Part shown: positions 3 to 30,882 of the stretch, in pieces
Layout: each line of letters begins with the position of its first letter
Numbering within the stretch: position 1 is the first letter of the stretch
Assembly (NCBI RefSeq): GCF_002154725.1
Contig: NZ_MTAW01000203.1
Location: 1-33,186 of the forward strand
Source of the DNA: Nostoc sp. 106C
Lineage (GTDB): Bacteria > Cyanobacteriota > Cyanobacteriia > Cyanobacteriales > Nostocaceae
DNA: 33,186 nt
Direction: 5' to 3'
Translations under genes and position numbers: made by a program
The notes under the pieces: model-generated
The model's database searches: none
What the model was told of the DNA's origin: nothing
The model's input: only the letters and a program-made list of their open reading frames with translations

Positions 3-3000
3 TATCTTAAAAGAATTTTAGGAGATAGAGCCGAAAATATAGAGCAAGCGATCGCAGCTTTTGTTGGAGCATTAGAAATTCATACCCGTACTGCCTTTCC
101 CCAAGAATGGGCAATCATACAATATAATCTGGGGGAGGCTTACCTTAAAAGGATATTAGGTGAAAAAGCCGAGAATCTGGAGTTGGCGATCGCTGCTTAT
201 ATAAACGTACTAGAAGTTACTCGCAGCAGATTTCCTGAACTATGGGCATTAGTGCAATATAGTCTGGGGATTGCTTACTGTGAGAGAATTTTAGGAGAGC
301 AAGCTGAAAACATCGAACAAGCGATCGCTGCTTTCTCAGGTGCATTGGAAGTTCTTACTCGCAGCGCCTTTGCCGAAGGTTGGGCAGATACGCAATATAA
401 GCTGGGTAATGCTTATCTTAAAAGAATTTTAGGAGATAGAGCCGAAAATATAGAGCAAGCGATCGCTGCTTATACTGCTGCACTAGAAGTTCATACCCAA
501 ACTGCTTTTCCTCAAAATTGGGCACAAACGCAAAGAAATCTGGGGGCTGCTTACTTTCACAGAATCAGGGGAGATAAAGCCGAGAATATCGAAATGGTTA
601 TTGTTATTTGCACTGCCGCACTAAAAGTTTATACCCGCAATGCTTTTCCCCACAATTGGGCAGATATGCAAAATAATTTGGCCAATGCCTACTATTACAA
701 AATCAAGGGAGATAGAGCCGAGAATATCGAAATGGCGATCGCAGCTTGGAACGCCGCCTTAAAAGTTTACACACGTAGTACCTTTCCCCAAGAATGGGGA
801 AGGGGACAAAATGATCTAGGGCTTGCTTACTTTGAGAGAATATTAGGAGAGCGATCTGAAAATATAGAGATTGCGATCGCAGCTTTCTCAGGTGCATTAG
901 AAGTTCGTACTTGCACCAGCTTTCCCGAACAATGGGCAGATACGCAAAATAATCTAGGTAATGCTTACCTTAAAAGAATCAGGGGAGATAAAGCCGAGAA
1001 TATAGAAATTGCGATCGCTACTTACACTGCTGTACTTGGTGTTTGTAATCGCACCAGCTTTCCCGAACAATGGGCAAATACGCAAAATAATCTAGGTAAT
1101 GCTTACCTTGATAGAATCAGGGGAGATAAAGCTGAAAATATCGAAATTGCGATCGCTACTTACACTGGTGTACTCGATGGTTGCAATCGCAACGTCTTCC
1201 CAGAAAAATGGGCAATGACGCAATATAATCTAGGATGTGCTTACCTCGATAGAATTAGGGGAGATAGAGCCGAAAATGTAGAAATTGCGATCACAGCATT
1301 GTCTGGGGCAATGGAAGTTTTCACCTGCAACGCCTTTCCCCAAAATTGGGCAGAGACGCAACATAATCTGGGATTTGCTTATCACAAGAGAATCAGGGGA
1401 GATAAAACTGAAAATATCGAAATTGCGATCGCGGCTTATACTGCTGCACTAGAAGTTTTCACCTGCAACACCTTTCCCCAAAATTGGGCAGAGACGCAAA
1501 ATAATCTGGGAACTGCTTACCACGAGAGAATATTGGGCGAGAAAGCAGAGAATATTGAAATTGCGATCGCAGCTATTTCTGAAGCAATGGAAGTTTTCAC
1601 CTACAACGCCTTTCCCCAAAAATGGGCAGATACCCAATATAATCTGGGTAATACTTACCGCGAAAGAATCGAGGGAGCTAAAGCTGAAAATATCGAAATT
1701 GCGATCGCGGTTTATACTGCTGCACTAGAAGTTTTCACCCGCAACGCCTTTCCCGAAAATTGGGCAAAAACGCAAGTTAATCTAGGACTGGCTTATTATG
1801 ACAGAATATTGGGTAATAAAGCCGAGAATTTAGAACGAGCGATTGCAGCTCATACTACTGCACTGGAAGTTTATACCCGTAGCGCCTTTCCCGAAAATTG
1901 GGCATTAGCGCAAAATAATCTAGGACTGGCTTACCGTGACAGAATATTAGGTGAGCGAGTCCAAAATATTGAAATGGCGATCGCAGCTTTTTCTGGGGCA
2001 TTAGAAATCCGTACCCGTAGTGCCTTTCCCCAATACTGGGCAGATACCCAAAATAATTTGGGTACTGCTTACACAAATAGAATATTAGGTGAGCAAGTCC
2101 AGAATATTGAAATGGCGATCGCAGCTTTTTCTAAGGCATTAGAAGTTCATACCCGTAGTGCCTTTGCCGAAAAATGGGCAATGACACAAAATAATCTGGG
2201 TACTGCTTACAGAGAAAGAATATTGGGTGAGAAAGCCGAGAATATTGAAATGGCGATCGCTGCTTATACTGCGGCACTAGAAGTTCGTACCCGTAACGCC
2301 TTTCCTCAAGATTGGGCAAAGACGCAAAATAATTTGGGTGGTGCTTACAGTCAAAGAATATTAGGTGAGCAAGCCGAGAATATTGAAATGGCGCTCGCTG
2401 CTTATACTGCGGCACTGGAAGTTTCTACCCGTAGCGCTTTTCCAGATGATTGGGCAATGACGCAATCTAATCTGGGGAATACTTACCTTTACAGAATCAG
2501 AGGAAATAAAGCTGAGAATTTAGAACGAGCGATAACTGCTTTTACTGCTGTACTGGAAGTTTACACCCGTACTGTTTTTCCTTACGATCATGTCCAAACT
2601 TTATTCATGCTGGGTATTGTCTATCAAGAAGCAAATCAATTTGATTTAGCTTACAGTAAGTTGGCTGCATCCATAAAAATAGTGGAATCTTTGCAAGGAG
2701 AAATTGTTTCTGAAGAGGCAAAGCGTAAACAAGCAGAAGCATGGAACAAACTTTATAGACGCATGGTAGAAGTTTGCCTAAAATTAGGCAATATTAAAGA
2801 AGCGATTGAATACGTTGAGCGGAGTAAAAACCGTAACTTAGTTGAACTTATTCTCAACCGCGATCTCAACACCTTCTTCCCTCAACAAGTTGTAACTCAA
2901 CTAGAGCAACTGCGAAACGAAATAGCAATAAGTCAGTATCAACTCCAAAATGGCAAAGCTGAAAATCCAACAGCCCTAGATCAATATCTTCAAGAGTTAC

Positions 3001-4253
3001 GAACCAAACGCCAAGAATTACAAGATCAATACTTGCCTATTGGTTCTGGTTTTAATTTTGACTTATTCCAAGCAACTTTGAATAACAACACAGCGATTAT
3101 AGAATGGTATATCGCTAGAGAGAGAATTTTCACGTTTGTTATCCAGTCTAATGGACAAGAAGTAAATTTCTGGCAATCTCAACCAGAAGACTTAAACTCT
3201 CTGTGGGATTGGCAAATTGAATATATCAGGGACTACGCCGCATACGTAGAAAATAACCAAAACCATCAATGGCAGGATCAGCTAGAAGAACGCCTGAAAA
3301 AGTTAGCAGAAATTCTGCATATAGAGGAAATATTAGCCTATATACCTAAACACTGCGACAGACTAATTCTCATTCCCCATCGCTATTTGCACTCGTATCC
3401 TCTCCATACTTTACCTGTAGGGCAATCATACTTAATAGATTTATTTTCCAATGGTGTAGGCTATGCCCCTAGTTGCCAATTGCTACAACAATTACAACTC
3501 CGCCAACGCCCTGATTTTCAATCTTTGTTTGCCATCCAAAATCCGACTGAAGACTTATATCAAGACTATGAAAAAGATTTAGGAGCAGTTGCAGCTATTA
3601 ATAAACAGTTTTCTGATTCTTATATTTTGAAGCAAGACAAAGCCAAAAAAGCAGCAATATTCAACTTCAATGAAAATATCAACAATGTGACACTAAATAA
3701 AGAATTGCTCAAGGCTAACTGTGCCTTTTTCTTCTGTCACGGTTACTTTAATCCTCTGTCTCCCCTAGATTCTGGTTTACAGTTAGCTGATGGAAACCTG
3801 ACTTTAGCAGATATCATTACTCACTTCAAACTAGAAAACTGTCGCCTAGTCACTCTTTCAGCTTGCGAAACTGGTATTACAGATTTCACAAGCACTAGTG
3901 ATGAATACATTGGTTTACCCAGTGGCTTCTTATTAGCAGGTAGTACCAATGTAGTTAGTAGCCTCTGGGCTGTGAATGCTACAGCTACTGCATTATTGAT
4001 GATTAAATTTTACGAAGAATTACAGCAGCAAAATAATATTACATTAGCTTTAAATACAGCGCAACGATGGCTAAGGGATACTACAGCAACAGGATTTCGA
4101 GATTGGCTGAGTAAATCACTACTAAGTTTGGTTTGGCAGATAGAACTGGATAAATACTTTACTCAAATTGAGATAGATAAAGATAAAACTTATAAACCCT
4201 TTGAATCGCCTTATTATTGGTCTGCTTTTTGTGCTATAGGTAAAGGAGTTTAA
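3..4253 (+). CDS. TPR-repeat CHAT-domain (caspase-like) protein, 5' partial
   Basis: A giant sensor-protease type protein. The frame is open from base 3 through the left edge, and the same repeat is already present there, so the true start is outside the window; a TTG at 183 falls inside a repeat and is not credible as the start. Eighteen 46-residue TPR-like units (consensus AENIE-AIAA...ALEV.TR.AFP..WA.TQNNLG.AY..RI.G) run from 30 to 2510, followed by a degenerate unit and more canonical TPR helices to about 2880, a helical linker, and a C-terminal CHAT domain (about 3300-4250). The CHAT dyad is intact: His in FFCHGYF (codon 3738) and Cys in LSACETG (codon 3864). CHAT proteins are caspase-clan cysteine peptidases, often fused to TPR sensors. 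The stop is 3 bp before the next gene, so it heads a three-gene operon. The substrate is unknown; protease activity is inferred from the dyad. Confidence 0.93.
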   Translation, partial: YLKRILGDRAENIEQAIAAFVGALEIHTRTAFPQEWAIIQYNLGEAYLKRILGEKAENLELAIAAYINVLEVTRSRFPELWALVQYSLGIAYCERILGEQAENIEQAIAAFSGALEVLTRSAFAEGWADTQYKLGNAYLKRILGDRAENIEQAIAAYTAALEVHTQTAFPQNWAQTQRNLGAAYFHRIRGDKAENIEMVIVICTAALKVYTRNAFPHNWADMQNNLANAYYYKIKGDRAENIEMAIAAWNAALKVYTRSTFPQEWGRGQNDLGLAYFERILGERSENIEIAIAAFSGALEVRTCTSFPEQWADTQNNLGNAYLKRIRGDKAENIEIAIATYTAVLGVCNRTSFPEQWANTQNNLGNAYLDRIRGDKAENIEIAIATYTGVLDGCNRNVFPEKWAMTQYNLGCAYLDRIRGDRAENVEIAITALSGAMEVFTCNAFPQNWAETQHNLGFAYHKRIRGDKTENIEIAIAAYTAALEVFTCNTFPQNWAETQNNLGTAYHERILGEKAENIEIAIAAISEAMEVFTYNAFPQKWADTQYNLGNTYRERIEGAKAENIEIAIAVYTAALEVFTRNAFPENWAKTQVNLGLAYYDRILGNKAENLERAIAAHTTALEVYTRSAFPENWALAQNNLGLAYRDRILGERVQNIEMAIAAFSGALEIRTRSAFPQYWADTQNNLGTAYTNRILGEQVQNIEMAIAAFSKALEVHTRSAFAEKWAMTQNNLGTAYRERILGEKAENIEMAIAAYTAALEVRTRNAFPQDWAKTQNNLGGAYSQRILGEQAENIEMALAAYTAALEVSTRSAFPDDWAMTQSNLGNTYLYRIRGNKAENLERAITAFTAVLEVYTRTVFPYDHVQTLFMLGIVYQEANQFDLAYSKLAASIKIVESLQGEIVSEEAKRKQAEAWNKLYRRMVEVCLKLGNIKEAIEYVERSKNRNLVELILNRDLNTFFPQQVVTQLEQLRNEIAISQYQLQNGKAENPTALDQYLQELRTKRQELQDQYLPIGSGFNFDLFQATLNNNTAIIEWYIARERIFTFVIQSNGQEVNFWQSQPEDLNSLWDWQIEYIRDYAAYVENNQNHQWQDQLEERLKKLAEILHIEEILAYIPKHCDRLILIPHRYLHSYPLHTLPVGQSYLIDLFSNGVGYAPSCQLLQQLQLRQRPDFQSLFAIQNPTEDLYQDYEKDLGAVAAINKQFSDSYILKQDKAKKAAIFNFNENINNVTLNKELLKANCAFFFCHGYFNPLSPLDSGLQLADGNLTLADIITHFKLENCRLVTLSACETGITDFTSTSDEYIGLPSGFLLAGSTNVVSSLWAVNATATALLMIKFYEELQQQNNITLALNTAQRWLRDTTATGFRDWLSKSLLSLVWQIELDKYFTQIEIDKDKTYKPFESPYYWSAFCAIGKGV
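30..2510 (+). repeat. 18 tandem 138-bp repeats encoding 46-aa TPR-like units
   Basis: Eighteen in-frame coding repeats: seventeen units of 46 codons and one of 45 codons (the unit from 168 to 302 lost one codon near EVTRSRF). Fourteen of the 18 carry an exact HIP1 octamer GCGATCGC at the same place, over the Ala-Ile-Ala codons; the first are at 48, 186, 321 and 459. Units starting near 582, 1272, 1824 and 2373 have lost the octamer. Neighbouring units are very similar at DNA level, which suggests duplication and gene conversion. Confidence 0.93.
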
Positions 4254-4256
4254 GCG

Positions 4257-4634
4257 ATGTCAATTTACGACAATAATATCCAGGCTTTTATTGAAGTAAT
4301 TGAACTGCAACCTGATGTGATTTCCACCGACGACTGGGCTGAATTGCAGCAAATTTCTAGTAATTTGTCAGCAGATAAAGAGGAAATTGCCGAATTCATT
4401 GAAAATTGGTTGCAACCAGAATCCCGTAGTCAAATTCTCCAAGCTTACAGACAGCAATTAAAATTAATCAGTTCTTCACACCCTATCGATTTAAATATAA
4501 ATTTAGGAATAGGTGGAAGTAAATCGCCAACTCCACCAAACCAACCTAGCCCATCATCTAAAGAACTTATAGAGAATACTATAAAAAAGAACTCTCCTTT
4601 ATCTGACAAGCAACAATCTCAGCAACAACCGTGA
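4257..4634 (+). CDS. Small helical protein between CHAT protein and membrane protein
   Basis: A 125-residue protein of no family I can name with certainty. Residues 1-75 look alpha-helical with a conserved-looking core (IQAFIEVIELQPDVIS, then DDWAELQQ and IAEFIENWLQ); residues 85-125 are Pro/Ser/Gln/Lys-rich and probably disordered. It starts 3 bp after the CHAT gene stop and ends in a 4-bp overlap with the next gene, so the three are almost surely co-translated. Small helical domains next to CHAT or caspase-like genes in bacteria are often effector-associated (death-like) adaptor domains; that role is inferred here from position, size and helicity only. No catalytic motif, signal peptide or membrane segment is visible. 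Confidence 0.8.
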   Translation: MSIYDNNIQAFIEVIELQPDVISTDDWAELQQISSNLSADKEEIAEFIENWLQPESRSQILQAYRQQLKLISSSHPIDLNINLGIGGSKSPTPPNQPSPSSKELIENTIKKNSPLSDKQQSQQQP

Positions 4635-6022
4635 AGAATTTCAGCCTCAGCCTCTATGCTTTTCATCTCCGCCACACCCTAACTGAACTTCCCGATGAAG
4701 TTGTGACAGATGCTAATCTATTGTGGGAAAATCTGGCGAAAGTAGGTGAAAATGCGCTTTTATTTATTGGCTTGAAAGATTTACGCTCAAAATTAATTTG
4801 TTATCAAAATAATGTATACGAACCCAAGCGTGAACAAGGAAGAAAAACAGAATGGTTAACTGATGCGGGAAGTTTAGATTTAGGTAGTCTGCCAACAACA
4901 GATGGCTTTAAAATTAATGCTAATCTTCAGCCTTTTTTGCTTAACGATACCTACGCAGTTGATTTAACTCTGTTTCCAGAATCACCAAACATCTCAATTG
5001 ATATACCAAAACTGCAACATTTTAAGCCAATTTCCCTACTACCAGCTAATATTAAACCATCTTTAGGGCAAACATTATGGATTTATGGAGAAGTAAATCC
5101 AAATGAAGATTGTGACGCACTAGCTCAACAATTTACTACAGCTTTAGTAGCAGGTACAAATTTAAATCCGGTGCAGATAAATAAAGGAGAACTTTTTGGT
5201 AGTCTGTTATTTGAATACCAAGCACTTGACCCCAATGAACCAGATAATCCAGCTAAACAATGTCAGATTTCAATAATAATCAACAATAGTCAGTCTTCAA
5301 CAGTAACACTTGCAGAAACTGCCTATGATTGGTTGCTAAATTTACTTTGTAGCTATCATAAAATACTTTACATTTACCACCTAGCTCGTCAACGCTACCG
5401 AGAAGCGAGAACAATTTATAGCGATTTAGAAAAGAAAATACAAAAATTTAACAGCCTGCAAAGTAACTCGCAAATCCAATTAACTGACTTAAAAAGCTTA
5501 ATGGCAGAGATTCCCCAAAAAAGCTTTGATTACACCCAATGTTTGCAAGATTTACAAACGCACCACACAGCAATTACTACTAACATTACTAATTACAAAA
5601 TTTGCTTAGATAAAATTCAAACTATTGGTAACGGGAACAGTCCCCAATCCTGGCAAGATTTTCTGCAAAAAGACTGTCATAAATGGCAAGAACAAATCCA
5701 AACAGATATTAACTATCTTGCTCCAGGTAAAGAACTATTTGGGCAACTGGTTGATACTATCCGAGGTATAGTAGAAACACAACAAGCCGAGAGCGATCGC
5801 TCTTTAGAACGGACAATTCAAATCTTAGGCATCGGCTTTGGTGGCGGTGCAATAATCTCCAGTGTAGTCGTCCAACATATCGACAAACTCAACAAGCCTT
5901 TAGCAGCTATATCTCCTGATAACCAACCTCATCCCTTTTACGCATCCTTGCTTTTAAGTTTTTTTGCTACATTGTTATTTATCGCCTTGGGTTGGTTAAT
6001 CACCAAACGCAGTAGGACATAA
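4631..6022 (+). CDS. Protein with large soluble domain, coiled coil and two C-terminal membrane helices
   Basis: A 463-residue protein, family not recognised. It starts with GTG in a GTGA overlap with the preceding gene. Residues 1-235 are a mixed alpha/beta soluble region; 240-390 are strongly helical (LARQRYREARTIYSDLEKKI onward) and likely coiled coil; 396-414 (IQILGIGFGGGAIISSVVV) and 437-457 (YASLLLSFFATLLFIALGW) are membrane helices joined by a loop of about 22 residues, with a basic tail KRSRT. The order soluble domain, long helices, two terminal membrane helices resembles the layout of CorA-type channels, but the GMN motif of CorA is absent. As last gene of a TPR-CHAT operon it is a plausible target or effector of the predicted protease, for example a membrane-permeabilising protein released by cleavage. 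That is inference; a plain membrane anchor is equally possible. Confidence 0.82.
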   Translation: MKNFSLSLYAFHLRHTLTELPDEVVTDANLLWENLAKVGENALLFIGLKDLRSKLICYQNNVYEPKREQGRKTEWLTDAGSLDLGSLPTTDGFKINANLQPFLLNDTYAVDLTLFPESPNISIDIPKLQHFKPISLLPANIKPSLGQTLWIYGEVNPNEDCDALAQQFTTALVAGTNLNPVQINKGELFGSLLFEYQALDPNEPDNPAKQCQISIIINNSQSSTVTLAETAYDWLLNLLCSYHKILYIYHLARQRYREARTIYSDLEKKIQKFNSLQSNSQIQLTDLKSLMAEIPQKSFDYTQCLQDLQTHHTAITTNITNYKICLDKIQTIGNGNSPQSWQDFLQKDCHKWQEQIQTDINYLAPGKELFGQLVDTIRGIVETQQAESDRSLERTIQILGIGFGGGAIISSVVVQHIDKLNKPLAAISPDNQPHPFYASLLLSFFATLLFIALGWLITKRSRT

Positions 6023-6044
6023 GGGAGATAAACAATTCAAAATC

Positions 6045-6070
6045 GCGAAGCGTTGCGAGCGCAGCGAAGC
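6045..6070. repeat. GCGAAGC-bounded small dispersed repeat
   Basis: Two direct copies of GCGAAGC (6045-6051 and 6064-6070) flank a small hairpin TGCG-AG-CGCA. GC-rich elements of this kind are common between genes of Nostoc-type genomes. It lies just after the membrane-protein gene of the CHAT cassette. Membership in a named repeat family was not tested. Confidence 0.4.
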
Positions 6071-6112
6071 AATCTGAAATGTTTTTGCCTATTGCCTTCT
6101 TGCCAAACAACG

Positions 6113-6168
6113 AATGACAAATACCCAATGACAAATAACAAATGACAAATGACATATAACAAATCACC
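6113..6168 (+). repeat. Heptanucleotide tandem repeat (STRR type), consensus AATGACA
   Basis: Eight consecutive heptads in register: AATGACA at 6113, 6127, 6141 and 6148, with variants AATACCC (6120), AATAACA (6134), TATAACA (6155) and AATCACC (6162). Short tandemly repeated repetitive sequences with a 7-bp unit are typical of heterocystous cyanobacteria. The array runs through the start codon of the following ABC transporter gene. Confidence 0.8.
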
Positions 6169-6874
6169 AATCATTCGTTTAGAAAATATCTATAAAATCT
6201 ATGGTAGTGGTGAAACTGAAGTCAAAGCACTCAATGATGTGAATTTGACTATTAATGAAGGCGAGTATTGTTCAATTATGGGCCCTTCTGGTTCCGGTAA
6301 ATCCACAGCCATGAATATTATCGGCTGTCTAGATCGCCCCACCTCTGGGAGTTACTATCTAGATAACCTTGATGTAGCGCAAATGGAAGATAAAGCATTG
6401 GCGCACATTCGCAACATCAAACTAGGGTTTGTATTTCAACAATTCCACCTATTACCTCAACTCACAGCCCTAGAAAATGTCATGCTGCCAATGGCGTATG
6501 CTGGAATCAATGCTAACGAAAGACGCGATCGCGCTACCGAAGCCTTGATTAAAGTCGGCTTAGAAAAGCGTCTCAACAATAAACCCACTCAACTATCTGG
6601 TGGACAACAACAAAGAGTAGCGATCGCCCGGGCCATTGTCAACCGTCCCGTCGTCCTCCTAGCCGATGAACCTACTGGCGCACTAGATTCACGCACTACC
6701 CAAGAAGTAATGGATATATTTAGCGAATTGAACGCCAGTGGAATTACAGTAGTTATGGTCACCCATGAACCAGATGTGGCGCGTCAAACTCAGCGTATTG
6801 TTTGGTTCCGCGATGGTGAAGTTGTTCACTCTTATTTAACTCCAGCCGATTTAACTCATTTGGCTGCATCGTGA
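6149..6874 (+). CDS. ABC transporter ATP-binding protein (MacB/LolD/DevA type)
   Basis: A 241-residue ABC ATPase that would power an export-type transporter of the MacB/LolD/DevA group. Visible motifs in order: Walker A GPSGSGKST, Q-loop FQQFHLLPQL, signature LSGGQQQRVAIARA, Walker B VVLLADEPTGALD, and switch histidine VTHEPD. Length and motif spacing match the family. The ATG at 6149 is inside a heptad repeat and has no Shine-Dalgarno sequence; no better in-frame start exists downstream before the conserved PIIRLENIYKIYG. The usual partners (a membrane-fusion protein and a FtsX-like permease, as in devBCA) are not next to it in this window, so its permease must be encoded elsewhere. The next gene starts 6 bp after its stop. 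Substrate unknown. Confidence 0.93.
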   Translation: MTYNKSPIIRLENIYKIYGSGETEVKALNDVNLTINEGEYCSIMGPSGSGKSTAMNIIGCLDRPTSGSYYLDNLDVAQMEDKALAHIRNIKLGFVFQQFHLLPQLTALENVMLPMAYAGINANERRDRATEALIKVGLEKRLNNKPTQLSGGQQQRVAIARAIVNRPVVLLADEPTGALDSRTTQEVMDIFSELNASGITVVMVTHEPDVARQTQRIVWFRDGEVVHSYLTPADLTHLAAS

Positions 6875-6880
6875 ACTATT

Positions 6881-7314
6881 GTGATTACCTACAAACTTCA
6901 TTTAGAAAATGTCGATTGGGAGGAGATGAAAGCCACACTCAGTCAGGATAACTTTGACAACGGCAGAACTCCTGAGCAACTCAAAATATCCTTTACCAAT
7001 AGTTATCGTACTTGCATTGCTTATGCAGGCGATGTCATAGACAAACCGCTACGCGTTTACGCATCATTGGTACAGCACGTGTACTATCGGATGGTATTTG
7101 TAATGCTTACATCGTTGATGTCTGGACATTCACTCCTTACCGTCGCCAAGGAATTGCTAGTACAATGATGCGAATACTATTAGATGAATTGCCTGGTCAA
7201 CACGTCTGTTTATTTACTGATGATGTTGTAGATTTTTACCAACAACTTGGTTTTAAAAAACTAGAAACTTGCTTGGAGAAAGTAGTTGGTAAATGGCTAG
7301 TTAATGACCATTAG
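6881..7314 (+). pseudogene. GNAT acetyltransferase, frameshifted by a 29-bp insertion
   Basis: Two overlapping frames together make one GNAT-family N-acetyltransferase. The N-terminal half reads from GTG 6881 (VITYKLHLENVDWEEM to CIAYAGDV); the C-terminal half reads in another frame from about 7066 (IGTARVLSDG, then VDVWTFTPYRRQGIAS, the acetyl-CoA binding signature, then CLFTDDVVDFYQQLGF) to the stop at 7312. Deleting bases 7039-7067 restores an uninterrupted frame ...CIAYAGDVIGTARVLSD..., exactly as a GNAT would read. The insert is flanked by TCAT at 7035-7038 and 7064-7067. As it stands, translation from the start ends at 7168 with an unrelated tail lacking the acetyl-CoA site, so the gene is probably dead unless the frame is rescued. 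Substrate unknown. Confidence 0.88.
7039..7067. repeat. 29-bp insertion in GNAT gene, SDR-like small mobile repeat
   Basis: The segment consists of 25 new bases plus a 4-bp duplication TCAT, and it contains a compact hairpin GCGT-TT-ACGC (7053-7062). Its removal restores the acetyltransferase frame exactly. Size, hairpin and target duplication resemble the small dispersed repeats (about 21-27 nt) described from Nostoc genomes. Family identity was not checked. Confidence 0.65.
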
Positions 7315-7408
7315 ATATAAAATAATATCATTTTGGAGCAATTATTAATTACGAATTTAACATCAAAATATATTTCTGTTTATTAAACACTAAATCTTAT
7401 GTTTTTAT

Positions 7409-7437
7409 GGCTAATAACTGGTTTATAGTTATTAGCC
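7409..7437. terminator. Perfect 11-bp stem-loop between convergent genes
   Basis: GGCTAATAACT (7409-7419) pairs perfectly with AGTTATTAGCC (7427-7437) around a 7-nt loop. It lies between the plus-strand GNAT remnant and the 3' end of the minus-strand HCP gene, where a bidirectional terminator is expected. No T-run follows the stem on either strand, so it is not a textbook intrinsic terminator; mRNA end protection is another possibility. Confidence 0.5.
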
Positions 7438-7453
7438 TTGACATCGTTACCAA

Positions 7454-7984
7454 TTACAAACTTGATGTTTTGCCAGTTTGTGCTTGTGTTTCAATAGGCT
7501 TGACATCACTGTAGCCCATATTGCCTGCGATCGTTCGCAGCACAGAAATTTGCTCTTCAAATTCTAATCCTTCAAGTTGGGAAAGTAGATTGTCAATACT
7601 ATCTGTAGTTTCATAATCGTCTGGGATATCAACTATCTTATCTCCCATACCTACAGCCCAAGCATACCAGACCAATAGCTGATTATTTTCTTTTATAGCG
7701 CCATATGCACGAGAATAATCTGTAGCCTCGCGATTAACAATTTGGCGCATAATCGCCAATTGCTCTTCATCTGATAACTCCAAATAATCTCCTAGCAAGA
7801 TTGGTGCTAAATTAGGTTCGGCAGCAGCAGGCGCAGCGGGAGTAATAGAATCCCCCATTTTTTCATAAACAAAATACAGCCATGCTAATTTAGCGTCGGT
7901 ATCTAAGGCATTAAAAGCTTCTACTGTTTTTTGAGTTTCATTAGTCAGAGCTTGAGAAATGTTTTTATCTTGGCTAGCTGTCAT
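7454..7984 (-). CDS. Helical carotenoid protein (OCP N-terminal-domain homolog)
   Basis: A 176-residue homolog of the carotenoid-binding N-terminal domain of the orange carotenoid protein. HCPs bind a keto-carotenoid and quench singlet oxygen or phycobilisome excitation in the cytosol. Family features seen: an opening helix with VEAFNALDTDAKLAWLYFVY (compare the OCP region around Tyr44), a Pro/Ala linker, LGDYLELSDEEQLAIMRQIV, NNQLLVWYAWAVGMG (region of OCP Trp110), and a closing helix LEGLEFEEQISVLRTIAGNM. The protein stops after the helical domain, so there is no fused C-terminal domain; a CTD homolog lies at 11321. Start chosen at 7984 because GGAG lies 8 bp upstream; a TTG at 8002 would place that site inside the gene. 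The HCP clade cannot be fixed from sequence reading alone. Confidence 0.92.
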   Translation of the reverse strand: MTASQDKNISQALTNETQKTVEAFNALDTDAKLAWLYFVYEKMGDSITPAAPAAAEPNLAPILLGDYLELSDEEQLAIMRQIVNREATDYSRAYGAIKENNQLLVWYAWAVGMGDKIVDIPDDYETTDSIDNLLSQLEGLEFEEQISVLRTIAGNMGYSDVKPIETQAQTGKTSSL

Positions 7985-8198
7985 TGTTAATCTCCAAGGC
8001 AATTTAACTTATTAAACTTAGGGTTAACAGAGTTTAAGAATTAGAATCTACCCCCAATGGAAAGAGATTTATTATGCGCAACTTGCAGATTTTATCTATC
8101 TTTTAATAGAAGTAAGAATATCTCCCAAGGTGCCAATGATATGACAGATGGCTTTGATACGATGACTTCAGCAAGTAAAAAATACCTAGGAGTGATTT

Positions 8199-8573
8199 AT
8201 GCCTGATGAAGTAAAGCCCAATGTCAACGAAGCTCCTACCCATGACGCACAATTAGCAGCTGAAAACATAGCTGCTGGCGAAGAAGAAGCGCCAAAGGTA
8301 GACTTTGAAGCTGATTACGCGGCTGCACAGCAATTTAGTGTAAGTGAGGTTGACCGCACAGGTGAAGGTGCTAAAGCAGCCCAAGCAGCAACAGCGCCTC
8401 AACACGAAGTTTCAAAACCAGAAGAAGTCAGAACTGAAGCGCAAGCAACTGGTAATCCTGATGATTATGCAGATATGGCTAAGGACGTTGGTGGTTCTAA
8501 AACAGAAGGTGTAACTAACGTCGATGATGATTTAGTAGAAAAAGCTTTAGAAAAGGGCCAATCAAAAAATTAA
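8199..8573 (+). CDS. Acidic Ala/Glu-rich, probably disordered protein
   Basis: A 124-residue protein of unknown family. It is rich in Ala, Glu, Asp and Lys with no Cys or Trp, and has no signal peptide, membrane segment or catalytic motif; the composition predicts intrinsic disorder and solubility. A clear AGGAG lies 7 bp before the ATG, which supports real translation. It is divergent from the HCP gene across about 210 bp, so the two could share a regulatory region. The look recalls stress-induced hydrophilic proteins of desiccation-tolerant cyanobacteria, but no LEA repeat is evident, so this is only an analogy. Confidence 0.75.
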   Translation: MPDEVKPNVNEAPTHDAQLAAENIAAGEEEAPKVDFEADYAAAQQFSVSEVDRTGEGAKAAQAATAPQHEVSKPEEVRTEAQATGNPDDYADMAKDVGGSKTEGVTNVDDDLVEKALEKGQSKN

Positions 8574-8590
8574 CTTCAATCAATAGTCAA

Positions 8591-8613
8591 AAGTCCTTAG
8601 TTATAAAGGACTT
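8591..8613. terminator. Stem-loop after the acidic-protein gene
   Basis: AAGTCCTT (8591-8598) pairs with AAGGACTT (8606-8613) around a 7-nt loop, 18 bp after the stop codon at 8573. Its position fits transcription termination of the acidic-protein gene, but there is no strong T-run. Confidence 0.45.
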
Positions 8614-8650
8614 CCAATCACAGCTATTTTCAGGTACATAACCTACGGGC

Positions 8651-8677
8651 TAAGGGCACAGCATTGCTGTGCCCTTA
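8651..8677. repeat. Perfect 12-bp-stem hairpin, dispersed repeat
   Basis: TAAGGGCACAGC (8651-8662) and GCTGTGCCCTTA (8666-8677) form a perfect 12-bp stem with loop ATT. Near-identical GGGCACAGCATTGCTGTGCCC hairpins recur in Nostoc-type genomes, as I recall. It sits between two convergent genes and may also serve as terminator or mRNA end protection for the minus-strand HAD gene at 8713. Confidence 0.6.
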
Positions 8678-8712
8678 CGATAGCTGTAGTTCAAAACTAC
8701 TAATTACTTTGA

Positions 8713-9348
8713 CTATTGATTAATTAAAATTCTTAAAAGCTCACTCGGATGGTGAATCAAAAAGTCTGGTTTTTGTTTGGCTAGAACTTCTGGTGAATTA
8801 AATCCCCAAGTGACTGCAATCACCTTGATATTAGCTTTTTTCGATGCTTCTATATCTCTGGTTTCATCTCCAACATAAATAACTTCTTGGGGTTTAAGTT
8901 GCTTTTGCCTTAATACATTATTGATGATAGTTGTTTTGCCAAAAATTGTAACGCCTGAATATATAAAGTCGAATAAACTACCTAAATCATTGATTTTGAG
9001 GAATTCAGTTACATTATCTTTAGAATTAGAAGTGATAATTCCAAGTTTATACCCGTGAGCCTTAAGTTCGATTAAGGCTTCTTTCATGCCTGGTATAGGT
9101 TTAAATTCATGAATCTTATTTTTTAATTCAGATTTAACTTTTTTAAGTAAAAAAGGAATCTTTAAAACAGAAATACCTGAGTACTTAATAATTTCTCGAG
9201 AAGTTAAGTTTCTGAGGAGAGCTAACTCCTGAGGAGTTATTTGTACATAATCAAACTCTAAAGCCAAACGATTAGCAATACTTACAAGAGCATGTACTGT
9301 ATCTGCAATCGTGCCATCAAAATCAAAAATAATTACTTTCTGCGTCAT
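8713..9348 (-). CDS. HAD-superfamily hydrolase, phosphoglycolate-phosphatase-like
   Basis: A 211-residue haloacid-dehalogenase-type phosphatase. Motif I is FDFDGTIADT (nucleophile Asp9, acid Asp11), motif II is the Ser of GIITSNS, a candidate motif III Lys is in IFGKTT, and motif IV is VGDETRD. A helical cap between motifs I and II makes it subfamily I, like Gph/PGPase, pyrophosphatase PpaX and related enzymes. The substrate cannot be read from sequence; 2-phosphoglycolate is the default family guess for a phototroph. The start codon lies inside the end of queG (26-bp overlap), so the two are probably translationally coupled, although no functional link between tRNA queuosine synthesis and this phosphatase is evident. 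Confidence 0.88.
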   Translation of the reverse strand: MTQKVIIFDFDGTIADTVHALVSIANRLALEFDYVQITPQELALLRNLTSREIIKYSGISVLKIPFLLKKVKSELKNKIHEFKPIPGMKEALIELKAHGYKLGIITSNSKDNVTEFLKINDLGSLFDFIYSGVTIFGKTTIINNVLRQKQLKPQEVIYVGDETRDIEASKKANIKVIAVTWGFNSPEVLAKQKPDFLIHHPSELLRILINQ

Positions 9349-10297
9349 TCTGTTGCCTAGATGCGTCTAGATTAGCACGGGCATTACGTCGTAACATTTC
9401 TGGTTTAATCCGCCGCAAGGCTGAGGCCGGAAATTGTTGCTCCCACTCCTCATCTGTGATTTCTGCTAATTCTATCAGTTTGGGTGCCAGATTCCCAGGA
9501 TAAGGATTAAATTCTGCCACATCAGTGCCCTGGGCGAAACGTAGATTCCACGGGCAAACATCTTGGCAGATATCACAACCTGCAACCCAGCCTTGTAAAT
9601 TTGATTTGACTGTTTCTGGTAATTTTTCTGCCCGATTTTCAATCGTATGATATGCAATGCAGCGATTAGCATCTACTACATAAGGACTAGTAATTGCATT
9701 AGTAGGACAAGCGTCAAGACAGCGAGTACAGGTTCCACAATGTTCTGTAGATGGGCGATCGCTTTCTAGTTCCAGATTAGTAAAAATCTCTCCCAAAAAT
9801 ACCCACGAACCATACTCTCGCGTAATCACATTTCCGTTCTTGGCAATCCAACCAATACCAGCTTTTTGTGCCCATACTTTATCCTGTACGGGGCCTGTAT
9901 CTGCATAATAACGAGCCTGAATACCTTCACCAAGTAATTGTAGCCAAGTACTCAATGCCTTGAGTTTCTTGTGCATCACCTTGTGATAATCTCTCCCCCA
10001 GCCATAGCGAGAAATCTTGGCGTATTCCTCACCTTTAGGATGTTGATGAGGTGTGTAGTAATTCAGAGCCACACAAACAAGCGATCGCACTTCTGGCATT
10101 ACTAAGCGAATATCCTGACGCTTCGGGTTAGCCATCCATTCCATGTCAGCGTTATATCCTAGTGATATCCATGCTTGCAACCGCTGCGCCGCTGTCTCAT
10201 CTACCCCATCTACAGCAGCAATTCCAGCTTTGTGAAACCCTAACTCTTTGGCTTTTTCTTTGATCGCATCGCTGCTGATTACGGCATATTTACTCAT
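9323..10297 (-). CDS. queG: Epoxyqueuosine reductase QueG
   Basis: A 324-residue cobalamin- and iron-sulfur-dependent enzyme that reduces epoxyqueuosine to queuosine in tRNA, the last step of queuosine synthesis, in the cytosol. Seen in sequence: YYADTGPVQDK containing the catalytic Asp133; the first 4Fe-4S ligand run CGTCTRCLDACP (Cys187, 190, 193, 197) with NRCIAYHTIE after it; the second run CDICQDVCPWN (Cys241, 244, 248); and a C-terminal HEAT-like helical tail. Length and motif order match the family. The start was taken at the ATG before KYAVISSDAIKEKA; only weak ribosome-binding complementarity is visible. It overlaps the HAD gene by 26 bp and leads a two-gene transcription unit. Confidence 0.96.
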   Translation of the reverse strand: MSKYAVISSDAIKEKAKELGFHKAGIAAVDGVDETAAQRLQAWISLGYNADMEWMANPKRQDIRLVMPEVRSLVCVALNYYTPHQHPKGEEYAKISRYGWGRDYHKVMHKKLKALSTWLQLLGEGIQARYYADTGPVQDKVWAQKAGIGWIAKNGNVITREYGSWVFLGEIFTNLELESDRPSTEHCGTCTRCLDACPTNAITSPYVVDANRCIAYHTIENRAEKLPETVKSNLQGWVAGCDICQDVCPWNLRFAQGTDVAEFNPYPGNLAPKLIELAEITDEEWEQQFPASALRRIKPEMLRRNARANLDASRQQNDAESNYF

Positions 10298-10691
10298 TTA
10301 TCTTAGGTAAATTTTGCTTAATCTATGCCTATTTGATTATAATGCATACAGCCAATAGCACTGTTAAATAACTTTTATTTCCAGTTTATTAATAAATAAT
10401 CCGAAATATAAAGCAACCCAGAATGTTGCAAGTCTTCCCAGCAATTGAGTGTTAGCAACCTTTGATAATTGCAGGCTAAGCACTTTCAATCTTTAATATT
10501 TTCTCTGTTGTTGTGGGACTTGTGAAAAAGACTCAGCTCATGCTGCGGGACAAGATTTTATGCAGATGTTTTGTAATCTGTTAGGCGGCGAGTCCGTACA
10601 TTGTGGTATCTGTCCTTTCAATGAATTCGGTGATGTCTTTGAAATTAACGATACTTATCATTAGGTCAAAATTTTCTTCTAAAAGCAAAAA
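10298..10691. other. 394-bp gap with an ORF remnant
   Basis: The gap contains the probable queG promoter region on its left and, on the plus strand, the start-less open frame at 10497-10664 described separately. No tRNA, CRISPR or strong terminator was seen. Confidence 0.6.
10497..10664 (+). pseudogene. Cys-rich ORF remnant, family unknown
   Basis: An open frame of 55 codons without a plausible start codon. It contains protein-like text: CGTCEKDSAHAAGQDFMQMF, then LGGESVHCGICPFNEFGDVF, then a stop. An internal ATG at 10560 lacks a ribosome-binding site. The pattern small-residues-HA-G-DFMQ-F-LG-VH-G-I looks like part of a conserved alpha/beta domain, so I read it as the 3' remnant of a lost gene; chance cannot be excluded. 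Confidence 0.35.
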
Positions 10692-11074: not shown

Positions 11075-11233
11075 CACTCCAATACTGTCAGTGCGAGTAA
11101 AGCCTACACCACTGATACGGTAAAGGTGAGTACGCAAGTCAAAAATGGGGGCATTAATTATGCAACGCTAAAAATTTATAGTGTAGATGCGCCACAGATT
11201 TACAACCTCCATCCAGAGGAAGAATTACTTTGA
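11075..11233 (+). pseudogene. ORF remnant without start codon, family unknown
   Basis: Fifty-two open codons follow a stop at 11072 with no ATG: SNTVSASKAYTTDTVKVST, then NGGINYATLKIYSV, then LHPEEELL and a stop at 11231. The residue pattern is protein-like and beta-rich, as in a secreted or repeat protein fragment, but I cannot name it. With the remnant at 10497 it suggests gene decay on both sides of the small membrane protein. Confidence 0.3.
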
Positions 11234-11320
11234 AATTAAGAATCTATCCCATTAGCAGCTTTTTTTTTACCTGCTTTTGGCGTGAAATTAATCTTTAGCT
11301 AGCGTAATCAAGGAAATTTT

Positions 11321-11743
11321 ATGACACAGCCAAGTGTTGTGGAAAATGTCACCGAAGAATTCTCAATAGAGGGAATTACAGAAAGCAGCATACTGCGTTA
11401 CTTTCAAAGTTTGAATGCAGGAGAATTTGCGGCAACAGCTGCCTTGTTTGCAGAAGATGGTACTATGTATCCACCATTTGAATCTGGTTTTGTCGGTCCA
11501 GATGCGATCGCTGGATATCTAGAAAAAGAGGCTCAGGATATTAAAGCCGATCCACACAAAGGAATTACCGAGATTTTAGAAAATGAGCAAATTCAAGTTC
11601 AGGTAGCAGGCAAAGCCAAAACTTCCTGGTGTAGTGTTAACGTTTTATGGGTATTTATACTCAATCAACAACGACAAATTACAGCAGCCAAAATTAAGCT
11701 TTTAGCTTCTCCTCAAGAGTTACTTGCGTTGCGTCGCGATTAA
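11321..11743 (+). CDS. OCP C-terminal-domain homolog (CTDH, NTF2-like carotenoid carrier)
   Basis: A 140-residue NTF2-fold protein homologous to the regulatory C-terminal domain of the orange carotenoid protein. CTDHs form dimers that bind a keto-carotenoid and hand it to HCPs. Residues that align with OCP include ILRYFQSLNAGEF, ALFAEDGTMYPPFESGFVGP, then TSWCSVNVLWVFILN and the closing LLASPQELL. Trp110 is in the place of the OCP Trp that hydrogen-bonds the carotenoid keto group. Cys104 lies where Anabaena CTDH has a redox-active Cys, as I recall the literature. AGGA lies 9 bp before the ATG. Unlike typical arrangements, the HCP partner is 3.3 kb away on the other strand. Confidence 0.92.
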   Translation: MTQPSVVENVTEEFSIEGITESSILRYFQSLNAGEFAATAALFAEDGTMYPPFESGFVGPDAIAGYLEKEAQDIKADPHKGITEILENEQIQVQVAGKAKTSWCSVNVLWVFILNQQRQITAAKIKLLASPQELLALRRD

Positions 11744-11853
11744 TTAGCTAGCAGCCAAGTTAATTCACTACCAGTAAGTACAAAAATTCTTGTTTGAATT
11801 TTGAATTGTTTTAACTTTGGCTAGCGATAGTTCTGATGAGCACACAGGGAGTT

Positions 11854-12279
11854 TCAAGTAACTAGTTCTGGTAAGGTAGCTTCTAACTTCAAACAGTTAG
11901 CACCATCTACTTGCAACTGATACTCTACCTTATCCATCAAACGATTCATAATCAGCCAACCGTAGCCACCTTCTTGTTTTTCTAGAGGGTTTGGCGGAAA
12001 GTAAGTAGACATATCGAAGCCTTCGCCATAGTCCCATACTTCTAAAGCGAGATCCCGGTCTTTCAGTTCTAAACGTAGTAAAACTGGCAAATTAGCCTGT
12101 TCTTTGTGGGCATGACGCACTACATTAGAGTAGGCTTCAACCAAAGCTAGTCGCAAACGACTTGATTGCCGTGACCAATCAACCGATTCTCCTAACTGGA
12201 TTTTCAAGCATCCCAGCAACCAGTTTTCAACGATATTTAAAAAATTTAAGTCACTTGGTACATGCAGCTCACTTTTCAT
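11854..12279 (-). CDS. RsbW-like serine kinase / anti-sigma regulatory factor
   Basis: A 141-residue GHKL-ATPase of the RsbW/SpoIIAB type, which either phosphorylates an STAS anti-anti-sigma factor or binds a regulator. ATP-site boxes are visible: N-box ALVEAYSNVVRHAHK, G1 DYGEGFD, and G2 GGYGWLIMNRLMD. It starts 3 bp after the stop of the upstream phosphatase gene, so the two form an operon and presumably one partner-switching circuit. No STAS (RsbV-like) protein or sigma factor gene is in the window, so its partner lies elsewhere. Confidence 0.9.
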   Translation of the reverse strand: MKSELHVPSDLNFLNIVENWLLGCLKIQLGESVDWSRQSSRLRLALVEAYSNVVRHAHKEQANLPVLLRLELKDRDLALEVWDYGEGFDMSTYFPPNPLEKQEGGYGWLIMNRLMDKVEYQLQVDGANCLKLEATLPELVT

Positions 12280-12282
12280 TAC

Positions 12283-13956
12283 TTACAAAACCTCCATTGA
12301 GAGTATAGTTTGATCGTCTTCTTGAACTGGGTTGTTTGCTTGGATGCGAGTGAGTAAATTGCCAAGAGAGAGTGGTTTTGGTTCCTGTTGTAACAGTTGC
12401 CAAAGTCCGTCTTGATTCAGCATAGATCGGCTAAAGGGCTGACCGCCATCTTCAGCATTTTTACAGTTAAATACAGTATTTGATACCATTGCCTCAGTAA
12501 TTCCATCACTAGCTAACAGCAGGGTATCTTTAGGATTCAGTACTAAGCGACCAGACTCTGCCTGCCACTTAGGTAAGATACCTAAGGGAACGCTACGAAC
12601 CTTGAGATAATGGGGTTGTGCGTCCGCAGTCGTGGGTGACGCCCATAGTAAAGGATAGATGTGACCAGCATTGGCATAGACTAGTTCTTTCGTGCTTGGG
12701 CTATAACAAGCTAGGACGAGTGTGATAAAGCAATTGTTGCTAATCAAGTCATCGCACATAGCATGATTAAGATTCTGCATAACTATATTCGGCTCAGCTG
12801 GGGTTTCTTGAGATAATTCCCGCCGTAATACCGAAATCGCACTAGCCATGAACAAAGCTGCTGGCACACCTTTACCGGAAACATCACCTACTGCTAGCCA
12901 TAAGTTCCCTTTCGGATGAACAAACACTTCAAAAAAATCTCCTCCTACTTCCCGAGCCGCATAGCAGCAAGCTTGCACTTTCACGCCCTTAATTTCAGGT
13001 AAACTTTGTCGTAGCAGGTTATTTTGAATTTGGCGAGCTACTTCTAATTCAGCTCTGATTTGGTGCTGTTTTTCTTGGAGGCGCTGATATAGTTTTGCTT
13101 GGGAAAGGGCTAAGGCTGCTTGTTCAGCAACGCCGGCAATTAGTTGAATGTCTTCATCTTGCCAGGAATGATCGTGTCCTCTTTGATAAAGGGCAAGAAC
13201 AGCTAGCAGGTGTTGCTGGTAAGACAAAGGCACAACCAGTTGGTGCCAAGGGTTACTCTCATCTGTACTTTGAGTAAGTTGATACTGACGAGTTTCCAGC
13301 ACTTTTTCAATTAAATAGCCAGGGTCGAAAACGAAATTTGAGGTATTGAAATTAGGATCTTGGTAGGAGAACAGATCTGATGTTAGGCAATCGCCCTCTA
13401 CTGGTTTGAGAAAGCAACAAGTAGTTTCAAATGCTTCTCCAATAGTTGCTACAATCTTTTGCAACATGCTGTCGTAATCTAACGACTCTCGGATTGCTGT
13501 GGTTACAGCATTAAACAAAGATTCTCGCCGCAAAGCGCGGCGCAACTCTTGAGTGCGTTGCTTAACTAAACGATAGGTATCAGTAGCTTGTTCAACAAGC
13601 GCTTTCAGCCTTTGGGGATTCCAAGGTTTAGTGATGTACTTGAATACCTGACCTGAGTTAATTGCATCCACCAAGTCTTCAACATCAGTAAACCCAGTCA
13701 GCAAAATGCGAATTGTATCTGGAAAACGCTCTACTGTGCGGCTCAAGAATTCAGTGCCGTTCATTTCTGGCATTCTTTGGTCAGAAATAATCACAGCCAT
13801 CTCGCCTTCTTTGTCTAGGATTTCTAGTGCACTAAGGGCATGATTGGCTTGATATACTTCAAAATCTCGTCTAAAAGTGCGGTAGAGTAAATCTAAGTTA
13901 TCCGGCTCATCATCTACCACCATGAGCTTAAGTTTGCATACCTCTATTTCAGTCAT
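12283..13956 (-). CDS. Response regulator with GAF and PP2C (RsbU/SpoIIE-type) output
   Basis: A 557-residue signalling phosphatase. Domains in order: REC (about 8-125; acidic pair DDE near 15, phospho-acceptor Asp59 in IISDQRMP, Lys in ITKPW), coiled linker, GAF (about 150-295), and PPM/PP2C phosphatase (about 330-557) with metal-site motifs VGGDFFEVF, AVGDVSGKGVPAALFMA, LASDGITEAM and QEDDQTILSM. It should dephosphorylate a phospho-serine STAS protein when its REC domain is phosphorylated. The RsbW-like gene follows after 3 bp. The upstream 186-bp gap separates it from a NarL-type regulator gene on the same strand. The cognate histidine kinase is not identifiable; two kinases lie downstream at 17432-21695. 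Confidence 0.94.
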   Translation of the reverse strand: MTEIEVCKLKLMVVDDEPDNLDLLYRTFRRDFEVYQANHALSALEILDKEGEMAVIISDQRMPEMNGTEFLSRTVERFPDTIRILLTGFTDVEDLVDAINSGQVFKYITKPWNPQRLKALVEQATDTYRLVKQRTQELRRALRRESLFNAVTTAIRESLDYDSMLQKIVATIGEAFETTCCFLKPVEGDCLTSDLFSYQDPNFNTSNFVFDPGYLIEKVLETRQYQLTQSTDESNPWHQLVVPLSYQQHLLAVLALYQRGHDHSWQDEDIQLIAGVAEQAALALSQAKLYQRLQEKQHQIRAELEVARQIQNNLLRQSLPEIKGVKVQACCYAAREVGGDFFEVFVHPKGNLWLAVGDVSGKGVPAALFMASAISVLRRELSQETPAEPNIVMQNLNHAMCDDLISNNCFITLVLACYSPSTKELVYANAGHIYPLLWASPTTADAQPHYLKVRSVPLGILPKWQAESGRLVLNPKDTLLLASDGITEAMVSNTVFNCKNAEDGGQPFSRSMLNQDGLWQLLQQEPKPLSLGNLLTRIQANNPVQEDDQTILSMEVL

Positions 13957-14142
13957 ATTTGACTTTAACTTTTTAGATACTTGAATGACAAATTAGTGTA
14001 ATTTTTATCACACTTAATAAATAATGGCATAATCAAAAACTAACTCTATTAGAGAAGTTACCCACTTTGAACTGAATATTTCTGTTAAAGCTGTAAATTT
14101 CTCTGAAAATATGCTTGAGAGGCTAAATTTCTAGAGTTAATG

Positions 14143-14859
14143 CTACCCGACCAGCCCAGAACGCAAGGCGCGAACTGCGGCTTGGGTGCGATCGTCAGCA
14201 CACAACTTGTTCAAAATATTCCGGACGTGAGTTTTCACCGTCCCTACTGTGATGTAAAGTCTCTCTGCGATCACTGCATTGCTACAACCTTCGACAATCA
14301 ACTGTAACACTTCTAATTCTCTTTCTGTGAGGATGTAAGGATCTATATGCTCCTGAGTCTCCCCAGACTCAGAATTATTAATGTGAGATTTTGTATTTAA
14401 TGATACTGTATCTTGTTTTGCTGGATTTTGTTGTGCTTGTTGTAATACAATCCTGGCGATCGCAGGATCGATCCAAGCGTTGCCATTGTAAGTTACTCGC
14501 ACTGCTTCCAGCAAATTATCGAATTTAATATCCTTCATACAGTAAGAATCAGCCCCAGCTGCAAAAGCTGCTAGTACTGCTTCTTTGTTATCACGTAGTG
14601 TCAAAATTAACACCTTAGTTCTTAACTCTGCGCCACTAGTCGACTTCAACTCACGTGTCAGCTCAATGCCATCTTTATCTGGTAAGCCAATATCGACAAT
14701 CGCAATATCCGGTTGTAGCGTTTTGAGCATTTTTAGACCTTCCGCAGCATTGGCAGCTTCTCCTACAACTTCAATTTCTTCTTTTTGCAGTAGTGCTGTC
14801 CGAATACCCACACGGGTGAGGTCATGATCTTCAATTAGAGCAATACGAATTCTACTCAT
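14143..14859 (-). CDS. NarL/FixJ-family response regulator
   Basis: A 238-residue DNA-binding response regulator. The REC domain spans residues 1-125 (IEDHD at 9-13, phospho-acceptor Asp56 in IAIVDIGLPD, Thr in ILTLRDN, Lys in YCMKDI); a Gln/Ser/Asn-rich linker follows; and a LuxR-type helix-turn-helix lies at about 170-238 (LTERELEVLQLIVEG, then VGTVKTHVRNILNKL). The start was chosen at ATG 14859 because GGAAG lies 6 bp before it; the TTG six bases upstream is less likely. A 744-bp gap precedes it. Its kinase and target genes cannot be told from sequence. Confidence 0.93.
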   Translation of the reverse strand: MSRIRIALIEDHDLTRVGIRTALLQKEEIEVVGEAANAAEGLKMLKTLQPDIAIVDIGLPDKDGIELTRELKSTSGAELRTKVLILTLRDNKEAVLAAFAAGADSYCMKDIKFDNLLEAVRVTYNGNAWIDPAIARIVLQQAQQNPAKQDTVSLNTKSHINNSESGETQEHIDPYILTERELEVLQLIVEGCSNAVIAERLYITVGTVKTHVRNILNKLCADDRTQAAVRALRSGLVG

Positions 14860-15603
14860 AGTCAACTTCCGCCCGTTACACTACCTTAACTGTAAAACCG
14901 AGTTTACTTAGAACCTGTAGGAGATGCAGTTGTAAGAGATCTGTACAAAACTGTAGAAGTGCTTTGTGAGCCAAGCTAACACGCAAAGGCATTACCAGTA
15001 CCACAGCATTCACTTCCTTAGGGAACATTACTATTCAATAATAGAATCAAGAGGGATAGACCCTAACTCTAAGGGTTTGGCTCAATTAGTGAAATTATGC
15101 TTGCTATTGATATAGGCTGACAAAAGCTCATAGACAAAGCGAGCTATTCCCAATATGTTTAGATTGCAGGTGAACTATTTTCCTCAAAGCGACTTCGGGT
15201 AGAGTAGTTTCCCCAAAAGGAGTTAGCTTGAAACTAACGACCTTATGCTAAGAGTATACTGGCTAGGATGAGGCTTGCGTTATCTTTAGCGACTGCTGAC
15301 ATTTATTCAAACATCTGCTGAATAAAAAGCTGCAAATTTTTTTGCTCATCTAGCTTTTAACAATTGCATTAGTCTTATTACTTAGTTAACTACCTATTTT
15401 ATATAAGATATATTTATTACTATATATAATCAATATACAGTCTTCATACAAGCTTTTGAATCACCCTCGGAAGATAATTTACTTAGTTTTATCGATGCCA
15501 GAAACGAATTATATGTTGCTAAAATTACAACAGCCAATATATTAAAAAATTTGATAGACTAACGTTCGTGAGACTGTGGTGTGAGCCTAAGTAAAAATCA
15601 GCT
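14860..15603. other. 744-bp gap, no protein gene seen
   Basis: This lies between the divergent NarL regulator and WecG-type genes. No open frame with a start and ribosome site was found. Features seen: a small hairpin GTTAG-CTTGAAA-CTAAC around 15223-15239 and a TA-rich block at 15395-15440 containing TATAAT at 15425-15430 with no good -35 box. The length is large for two promoters, so an unannotated small RNA is possible; none could be recognised. Confidence 0.5.
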
Positions 15604-30811: not shown

Positions 30812-30836
30812 TCCTTGTTTATCTAATTATATGTAT

Positions 30837-30853
30837 GGTGGGCAATGCCCACC
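30837..30853. repeat. GGTGGGC-AAT-GCCCACC hairpin
   Basis: A perfect 7-bp stem with a 3-nt loop, a form common between cyanobacterial genes. It lies within the upstream extension that would be translated if the ATPase began at 30835, which argues that the true start is the later ATG at 30883. It could terminate the phosphatase transcript. Confidence 0.6.
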
Positions 30854-30882
30854 TATTAATTACTTTCAACATTATTAAGACG

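Follow-up and report, generated by a model that had tools for sequence, protein, structure and literature searches.

Nostoc sp. 106C carries, at the left end of the 33,186-nucleotide stretch analysed here (contig NZ_MTAW01000203.1; hereafter the window), a tight forward-strand trio of genes encoding a TPR-CHAT protease (gene A), a small protein (gene B) and a protein with a membrane-spanning tail (gene C). We read this CHAT-B-C trio, with a probability of about 50%, as a modular caspase-family signalling and regulated cell-death unit. The reading draws on the conserved linkage of C to a CHAT gene, on the co-variation of CHAT with the N-terminal part of C, and on forms of C in which the membrane tail is replaced by other modules. 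A conflict or cell-death role of the unit is likely, and a role in defence is suggested by association. An open-access literature search returned no published description of such a unit. The features of the locus, in window coordinates, are as follows.

3..4253 (+): gene A, TPR-CHAT protein, 5' end missing at the contig edge
3..2660 (+): TPR-like array of gene A, putative sensor, 19 markers with a 46-aa period; right edge approximate
3291..4241 (+): CHAT caspase-fold protease domain (Pfam PF12770)
3738..3740 (+): codon of the catalytic His1246 of gene A
3864..3866 (+): codon of the catalytic Cys1288 of gene A
4257..4634 (+): gene B, 125 aa, fast-evolving, C-terminal part rich in P/S; possibly an adaptor or an inhibitor
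4631..6022 (+): gene C, 463 aa, head plus tail with two transmembrane (TM) segments, GTG start
4631..5758 (+): C head, N-domain (about residues 1-235) and probable coiled coil (about 236-376)
5759..6019 (+): C tail, IRGIVE..QA..DRSLE motif and two TM segments, apparently an exchangeable module; near-identity with Nostoc sp. T09 begins here
5816..5872 (+): predicted TM1 of C, glycine-rich (hydropathy)
5948..6004 (+): predicted TM2 of C (hydropathy)
6129..6137: right boundary of the accessory segment, where DNA similarity begins to six congeners that lack C and CHAT at the site

The trio is arranged as an earlier note on this DNA, made from the sequence by a model, had described. Gene B starts 3 nt past the TAA of gene A (coordinates 4253 and 4257), gene C overlaps the end of gene B by GTGA (4631 and 4634), and the two C-terminal membrane helices reported for the 463-residue protein are recovered by hydropathy at residues 396-414 and 440-458. 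The 5' end of gene A is open because the window begins at a contig end. Where the note had counted at least 18 TPR-like units, 19 markers were found, spaced by 46 aa in 17 of 18 intervals and by 45 aa in the remaining one. The CHAT domain spans residues 1097-1413 (Pfam E 2.6e-45; 155.5 bits against a curated cut-off of 24), and this score together with the intact His1246/Cys1288 dyad places gene A in the CHAT protease family. The dyad is nearly invariant among 51 CHAT domains paired with C, with His in 51/51 and Cys in 50/51, the exception (locus L059; loci are designated by L numbers) having a gap at that column. The genome of the window holds 45 CHAT matches in 8.66 Mb, a single full B and a single full C. 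On another contig of this genome (L129, contig positions 15801-16052), a weak match resembling the C tail (E 4.2e-9) lies near a C14 caspase-GUN4 gene.

The linkage of the three genes is conserved beyond the window. A first sample comprised 68 loci with a C open reading frame (ORF) of 400-620 aa, excluding shorter or broken C matches as well as L115 and L122, which repeat L096 and L120; four lay too near a contig edge, and a CHAT gene was found upstream of C, on the same strand and within 2 kb, in 54 of the 64 testable loci. A second sample was drawn from the best matches of an order-wide listing and is hence biased to closer relatives: 40 loci were fetched, two of them from one genome; a C ORF of 380 aa or more was present in 39, of which one stood at an edge, and CHAT lay upstream of C in 34 of the remaining 38. 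The earlier note had named homologs of B and C mostly away from CHAT genes as the outcome that would speak against a system; the opposite was found. Other arrangements in the first sample include CHAT downstream of C (L096), a divergent C14 caspase gene instead of CHAT (L077 and L119), and CHAT downstream on the opposite strand together with a divergent C14 gene (L118 and L120). Additionally, a C14-type gene stands beside B and C in L126 and L142, which belong to a group (L123-L142) selected for unusual matches or as added examples and kept outside the linkage counts. The C14 assignment comes from Pfam in L077, from the record annotation in L119 and from a purpose-built profile in L126 and L142, where the Pfam matches considered were limited to 25 families; in all four loci the gene also carries nSTAND1 and WD40 domains (Pfam), and that of L120, with its sequence taken from the repeat L122, carries nSTAND1 and trypsin.

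B itself was scored differently in the two samples. In the first, any small ORF in the right place was accepted (62 of 68 loci, some clearly not B); in 43 of the 62 this upstream ORF ended within 30 nt of the C gene, with a 4-nt overlap in 17 of them. In the second, a profile match at E <= 0.05 counted as B wherever it stood in the locus, provided it was on the same strand. Two loci, L091 (E 3.8e-37) and L097 (E 2.7e-5), have B fused downstream of CHAT, with L093 as a weak case (E 0.067). These fusions support a close link between B and CHAT; the earlier note had proposed B as an adaptor, and an inhibitor is the other role considered here. Among loci in which C stands alone, L065 of the first sample retains, by eye, a B-like ORF. 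In the second sample, L163, L167, L169 and L172 carry C without a CHAT, C14 or B match, and L167 and L169 have a common neighbourhood.

From these comparisons C emerges as modular at the sequence level, with an N-terminal part that co-varies with CHAT and a tail that is exchanged. Across 51 loci in which a CHAT ORF of 500 aa or more lies upstream on the same strand, the distance-matrix correlation (rho, 300 permutations) of CHAT was 0.61 with the C head, 0.615 with the N-domain and 0.48 with the coiled-coil part, and the tail correlated at 0.45 both with CHAT and with the head. Pairwise comparisons, with identity thresholds set after the data had been seen and with locus pairs that are not independent of one another, run the same way. 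None of the 35 pairs with N-domain identity of at least 0.6 had CHAT identity below 0.55, and none of the 37 pairs with CHAT identity of at least 0.62 had N-domain identity below 0.45 (three lay at 0.47-0.50); among 61 pairs with tail identity of at least 0.65, the N-domain fell below 0.45 in 28. In L085 and L094, TPR and tail regions with identities of 0.84 and 0.95 flank diverged CHAT (0.51), B (0.27), N-domain (0.27) and coiled coil (0.31). Standalone tail genes were considered as a reservoir of cassettes; the short tail ORFs concerned (L051 at 8031-8300, L070, L072, L074, L079, L080, L081 at 989-1330, and L083) look like truncated remnants, and no cassette claim is therefore made.

The clearest event of this kind is seen at the site of the window itself. 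Nostoc sp. T09 (L044) has a different CHAT-B-head allele there, with a near-identical tail and flank: DNA identity to the window is 93.7-97.2% from nt 5759 in three blocks (5759-7445, 7439-10327 and 11193-16093), and the C heads are only 24-29% identical. Judged by their sequences, the two carriers thus hold different alleles of the CHAT-B-head core. Six further genomes of the genus share the downstream genes, with conservation setting in at nt 6129-6137; upstream of this flank, about 8 kb in five of them and about 0.2 kb in the sixth gave no match to C or CHAT. The unit is consequently accessory at this site, with gain and loss left unpolarised.

Variant forms of C bear on its role. In L123, L124 (two genes) and L125, which represent three genomes, the head of C runs into bDLD1, a bacterial Death-like domain (E 1.3e-5 to 5.8e-8; 25.9-33.4 bits against a cut-off of 25), and in L123 and one gene of L124 a trypsin domain follows. 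The gene order in L125 is CHAT, C head-bDLD1, B and bDLD1-C14; in L124 it is CHAT, TPR-CHAT, C head-bDLD1-trypsin, an unknown gene, bDLD1-iSTAND, MoxR-like AAA, vWA, C head-bDLD1 and B. Replacement of the TM tail by bDLD1 or bDLD1-trypsin supports an output role of C, and to that extent the earlier note's view of the third protein as target or effector is supported. The proteins of the window show no bDLD match in A, B or C at E <= 1 (Pfam), and the EAD/bDLD effector architecture was not found in them.

According to the cell-death reading, the TPR array of gene A would sense a cue and activate CHAT. CHAT, B and the C head would act as a matched set, as their co-variation and block replacement suggest, and CHAT would process B and/or the C head, a cleavage to which the conserved dyad and the family precedent of Csx29 and Csx30 point. 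C would then serve as a hub whose C-terminal module provides the output. This would usually be a 2-TM hairpin causing membrane damage and death; an action at the membrane is suggested by where the hairpin sits, by the glycine-rich character of its first segment and by the effector-type modules that can replace it. Rarely, the output would be a bDLD1 domain coupling to a trypsin-like or C14 protease. The signal would accordingly be expected to pass from protease to hub to output, and the trigger would most likely be a phage or other invader, with kin recognition as a second guess. A more tentative extension, which we consider less likely than not, would make CHAT-B-C a common cyanobacterial unit of inflammasome-like kind. 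Its polymorphic protease-adaptor-hub core would pass as a block between alleles, with recombination taking place in the TPR repeats and in the tail of C, much as at allorecognition or immune-receptor loci, and its output would alternate between a membrane hairpin and Death-domain-recruited proteases.

Several observations weigh against the cell-death reading. C occurs with neither CHAT nor C14 in 5 of 64 loci of the first sample and 4 of 38 of the second. The coiled-coil part co-varies with CHAT barely more than the tail does (0.48 vs 0.45), and every correlation, that of the tail included, exceeded all 300 permutations, which means that the tail is decoupled only in relative terms; the pair counts carry the post hoc thresholds and non-independence given above. 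At the same hydropathy threshold, 19 of the 51 C proteins, that of the window included in the set, have a single TM segment in the tail (29 have two and three have three). The motif preceding TM1 had been considered as the cleavage site; it is not kept in the bDLD1 forms of C, which weakens this candidate and makes a universal cleavage site there unlikely. bDLD1 could, moreover, bring a signal into C instead of out of it. Finally, the earlier note had looked to a defence-island setting, which is not borne out at the window: the visible downstream flank is not a defence island. Most of the neighbours covered there are ordinary genes (the Pfam scan took in 16 proteins of the window, five larger ORFs left out, and only the downstream side lies within the contig), apart from a Septu-like pair about 25 kb away.

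One alternative reverses the flow. The 2-TM tail of C would be a membrane sensor or anchor controlling CHAT via B, the targets of CHAT would lie elsewhere, and bDLD1 would provide input from a ternary system. The diversity of the tail beside the nearly invariant CHAT dyad, the fusions of B to the protease, and the C head-bDLD1 gene beside an iSTAND-MoxR-vWA set in L124 all fit such an arrangement. However, the replacement tail with a trypsin-like enzyme in L123 and one L124 gene reads as an output, and the sensor-like repeats are located on the protease side; we regard this alternative as unlikely.

Less probable still is a developmental or cell-division regulator that is no conflict system, after the manner of HetF. 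This Anabaena protein is a CHAT-TM-TPR putative protease that heterocyst development requires and that also has a part in cell division (PMC8406250). It resembles gene A as a cyanobacterial CHAT/TPR putative protease and differs in its N-terminal CHAT part (aa 1-555), in having TM and TPR in the same chain, and in its developmental role (PMC8406250). The mostly ordinary neighbours of the window locus would suit such a regulator, but the distribution of C is patchy. A single-sequence search recovered C from 39 of 388 genomes in the class; a profile search recovered it from 47 of 386 genomes in the phylum at E <= 1e-5 and from 217 of 388 in the order of the window at E <= 1e-20, where four candidates per genome were scored and many genomes gave two or more matches; the order sampled is, we assume, Cyanobacteriales of GTDB. 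The named hosts of C matches are all cyanobacteria. Among plasmid records, which constitute the check beyond cyanobacteria, two C queries matched cyanobacteria alone (6 and 12 records; 18 match rows, several records common to both queries, seven inspected). The patchy distribution, the several matches in many genomes, these plasmid copies, the lack of the unit from the same site in congeners, the allele differences at one site and the bDLD1 and trypsin fusions resemble a conflict module rather than a core regulator. A fortuitous operon, in which a TPR-CHAT gene merely adjoins two unrelated genes, is very improbable: CHAT genes are common, with 45 matches in this genome, but the linkage recurs in both locus samples (54/64 and 34/38), and B and CHAT are jointly missing in 4/4 solo C loci of the second.

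Similarity to described systems is partial. A bDLD1-iSTAND protein beside bDLD1-trypsin has been described in work on MoxR-vWA-iSTAND/VMAP ternary conflict systems with EAD/bDLD adaptors (Kaur et al. 2020, PMC7159879; 2021, PMC8195603). The variant C with bDLD1 and trypsin resembles these systems, and L124, where it stands beside bDLD1-iSTAND, MoxR-like AAA and vWA, is of their MoxR-vWA-iSTAND type. In contrast, the common form of C lacks their components in the genes scanned, and its head has no Pfam model; a MoxR ATPase, vWA and third component are likewise missing among the 16 Pfam-scanned window proteins, and no ternary conflict system is recognised on the visible, downstream side of the window locus. 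The whole word CHAT is absent from the main texts of PMC7159879 and PMC8195603, whose "caspase-superfamily peptidases" could include CHAT. In type III-E Craspase (Csx29 with Csx30), a TPR-CHAT protease is likewise coupled to a partner protein. Unlike Csx29, however, gene A scores 84.1 bits with NCBIfam NF041237 against a cut-off of 300, and membership was rejected. Its matches in the PDB at E <= 1e-5 are five sequences, all named "CHAT domain protein", presumably Craspase entries. The caspase (C14)-nSTAND1-WD40 proteins adjoin B and C in four loci, as noted above, and differ in having an NTPase and beta-propeller for TPR, C14 for CHAT, and a divergent orientation.

Known families offer little purchase on B and C, neither of which gave a match of meaningful score in Pfam, NCBIfam or PADLOC models. 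When 28 C proteins were scanned together, no Pfam family matched more than four of them. PF20712 (Cyanobacterial TRADD-N associated 2-TM domain), a TM module in cyanobacterial apoptosis-like proteins, is a comparable 2-TM module in cyanobacteria. Nevertheless, the window C has no match to it at E <= 1, which led to its rejection as the identity of the tail; it is also absent from the best 25 of the 35 Pfam families listed for the 28 proteins. Four PF20712 matches do occur in the genome of the window, all on contigs other than that of the window. No gasdermin-named match was obtained for the window C in Pfam or PADLOC, libraries whose content of a gasdermin model was left unchecked. A known solved fold for C was considered and rejected, only weak matches of coiled-coil type being obtained (best E 0.013).

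Downstream of the trio, the scanned genes comprise an ABC ATPase, a gene with an orange-carotenoid-protein N-domain, HAD, QueG, two-component genes and a photosynthetic reaction-centre gene. The second of these (7454-8002, minus strand) carries Carot_N (Orange carotenoid protein N-terminal domain) alone and stands beside the ABC ATPase gene, an arrangement conserved in the six congeners. A 1476-aa protein at 21979-26409 (minus strand) has AMP-binding, methyltransferase, carrier and reductase-type domains and resembles a single-module reductase of the nonribosomal peptide synthetase-like type. The Septu-like anti-phage pair at 30835-32867 (plus strand) consists of an AAA ATPase (461 aa) and an HNH protein (216 aa) that overlap by 4 nt, with PtuA (5e-158) and PtuB (8.5e-78) as best PADLOC matches.

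The C family has no entry in Pfam, NCBIfam or PADLOC; within a single cyanobacterial order it occurs in 217 of the 388 genomes sampled, in most of the loci studied beside a caspase-fold protease. Cyanobacterial CHAT genes are very numerous, and the family provides candidates for their substrates and outputs; the bDLD1 fusions connect the C family to the bacterial apoptosis-like network. Furthermore, the different alleles held at one site by sister species make specificity testable. CHAT-B-C makes a good candidate for a system of cell suicide or immunity that has yet to be described.

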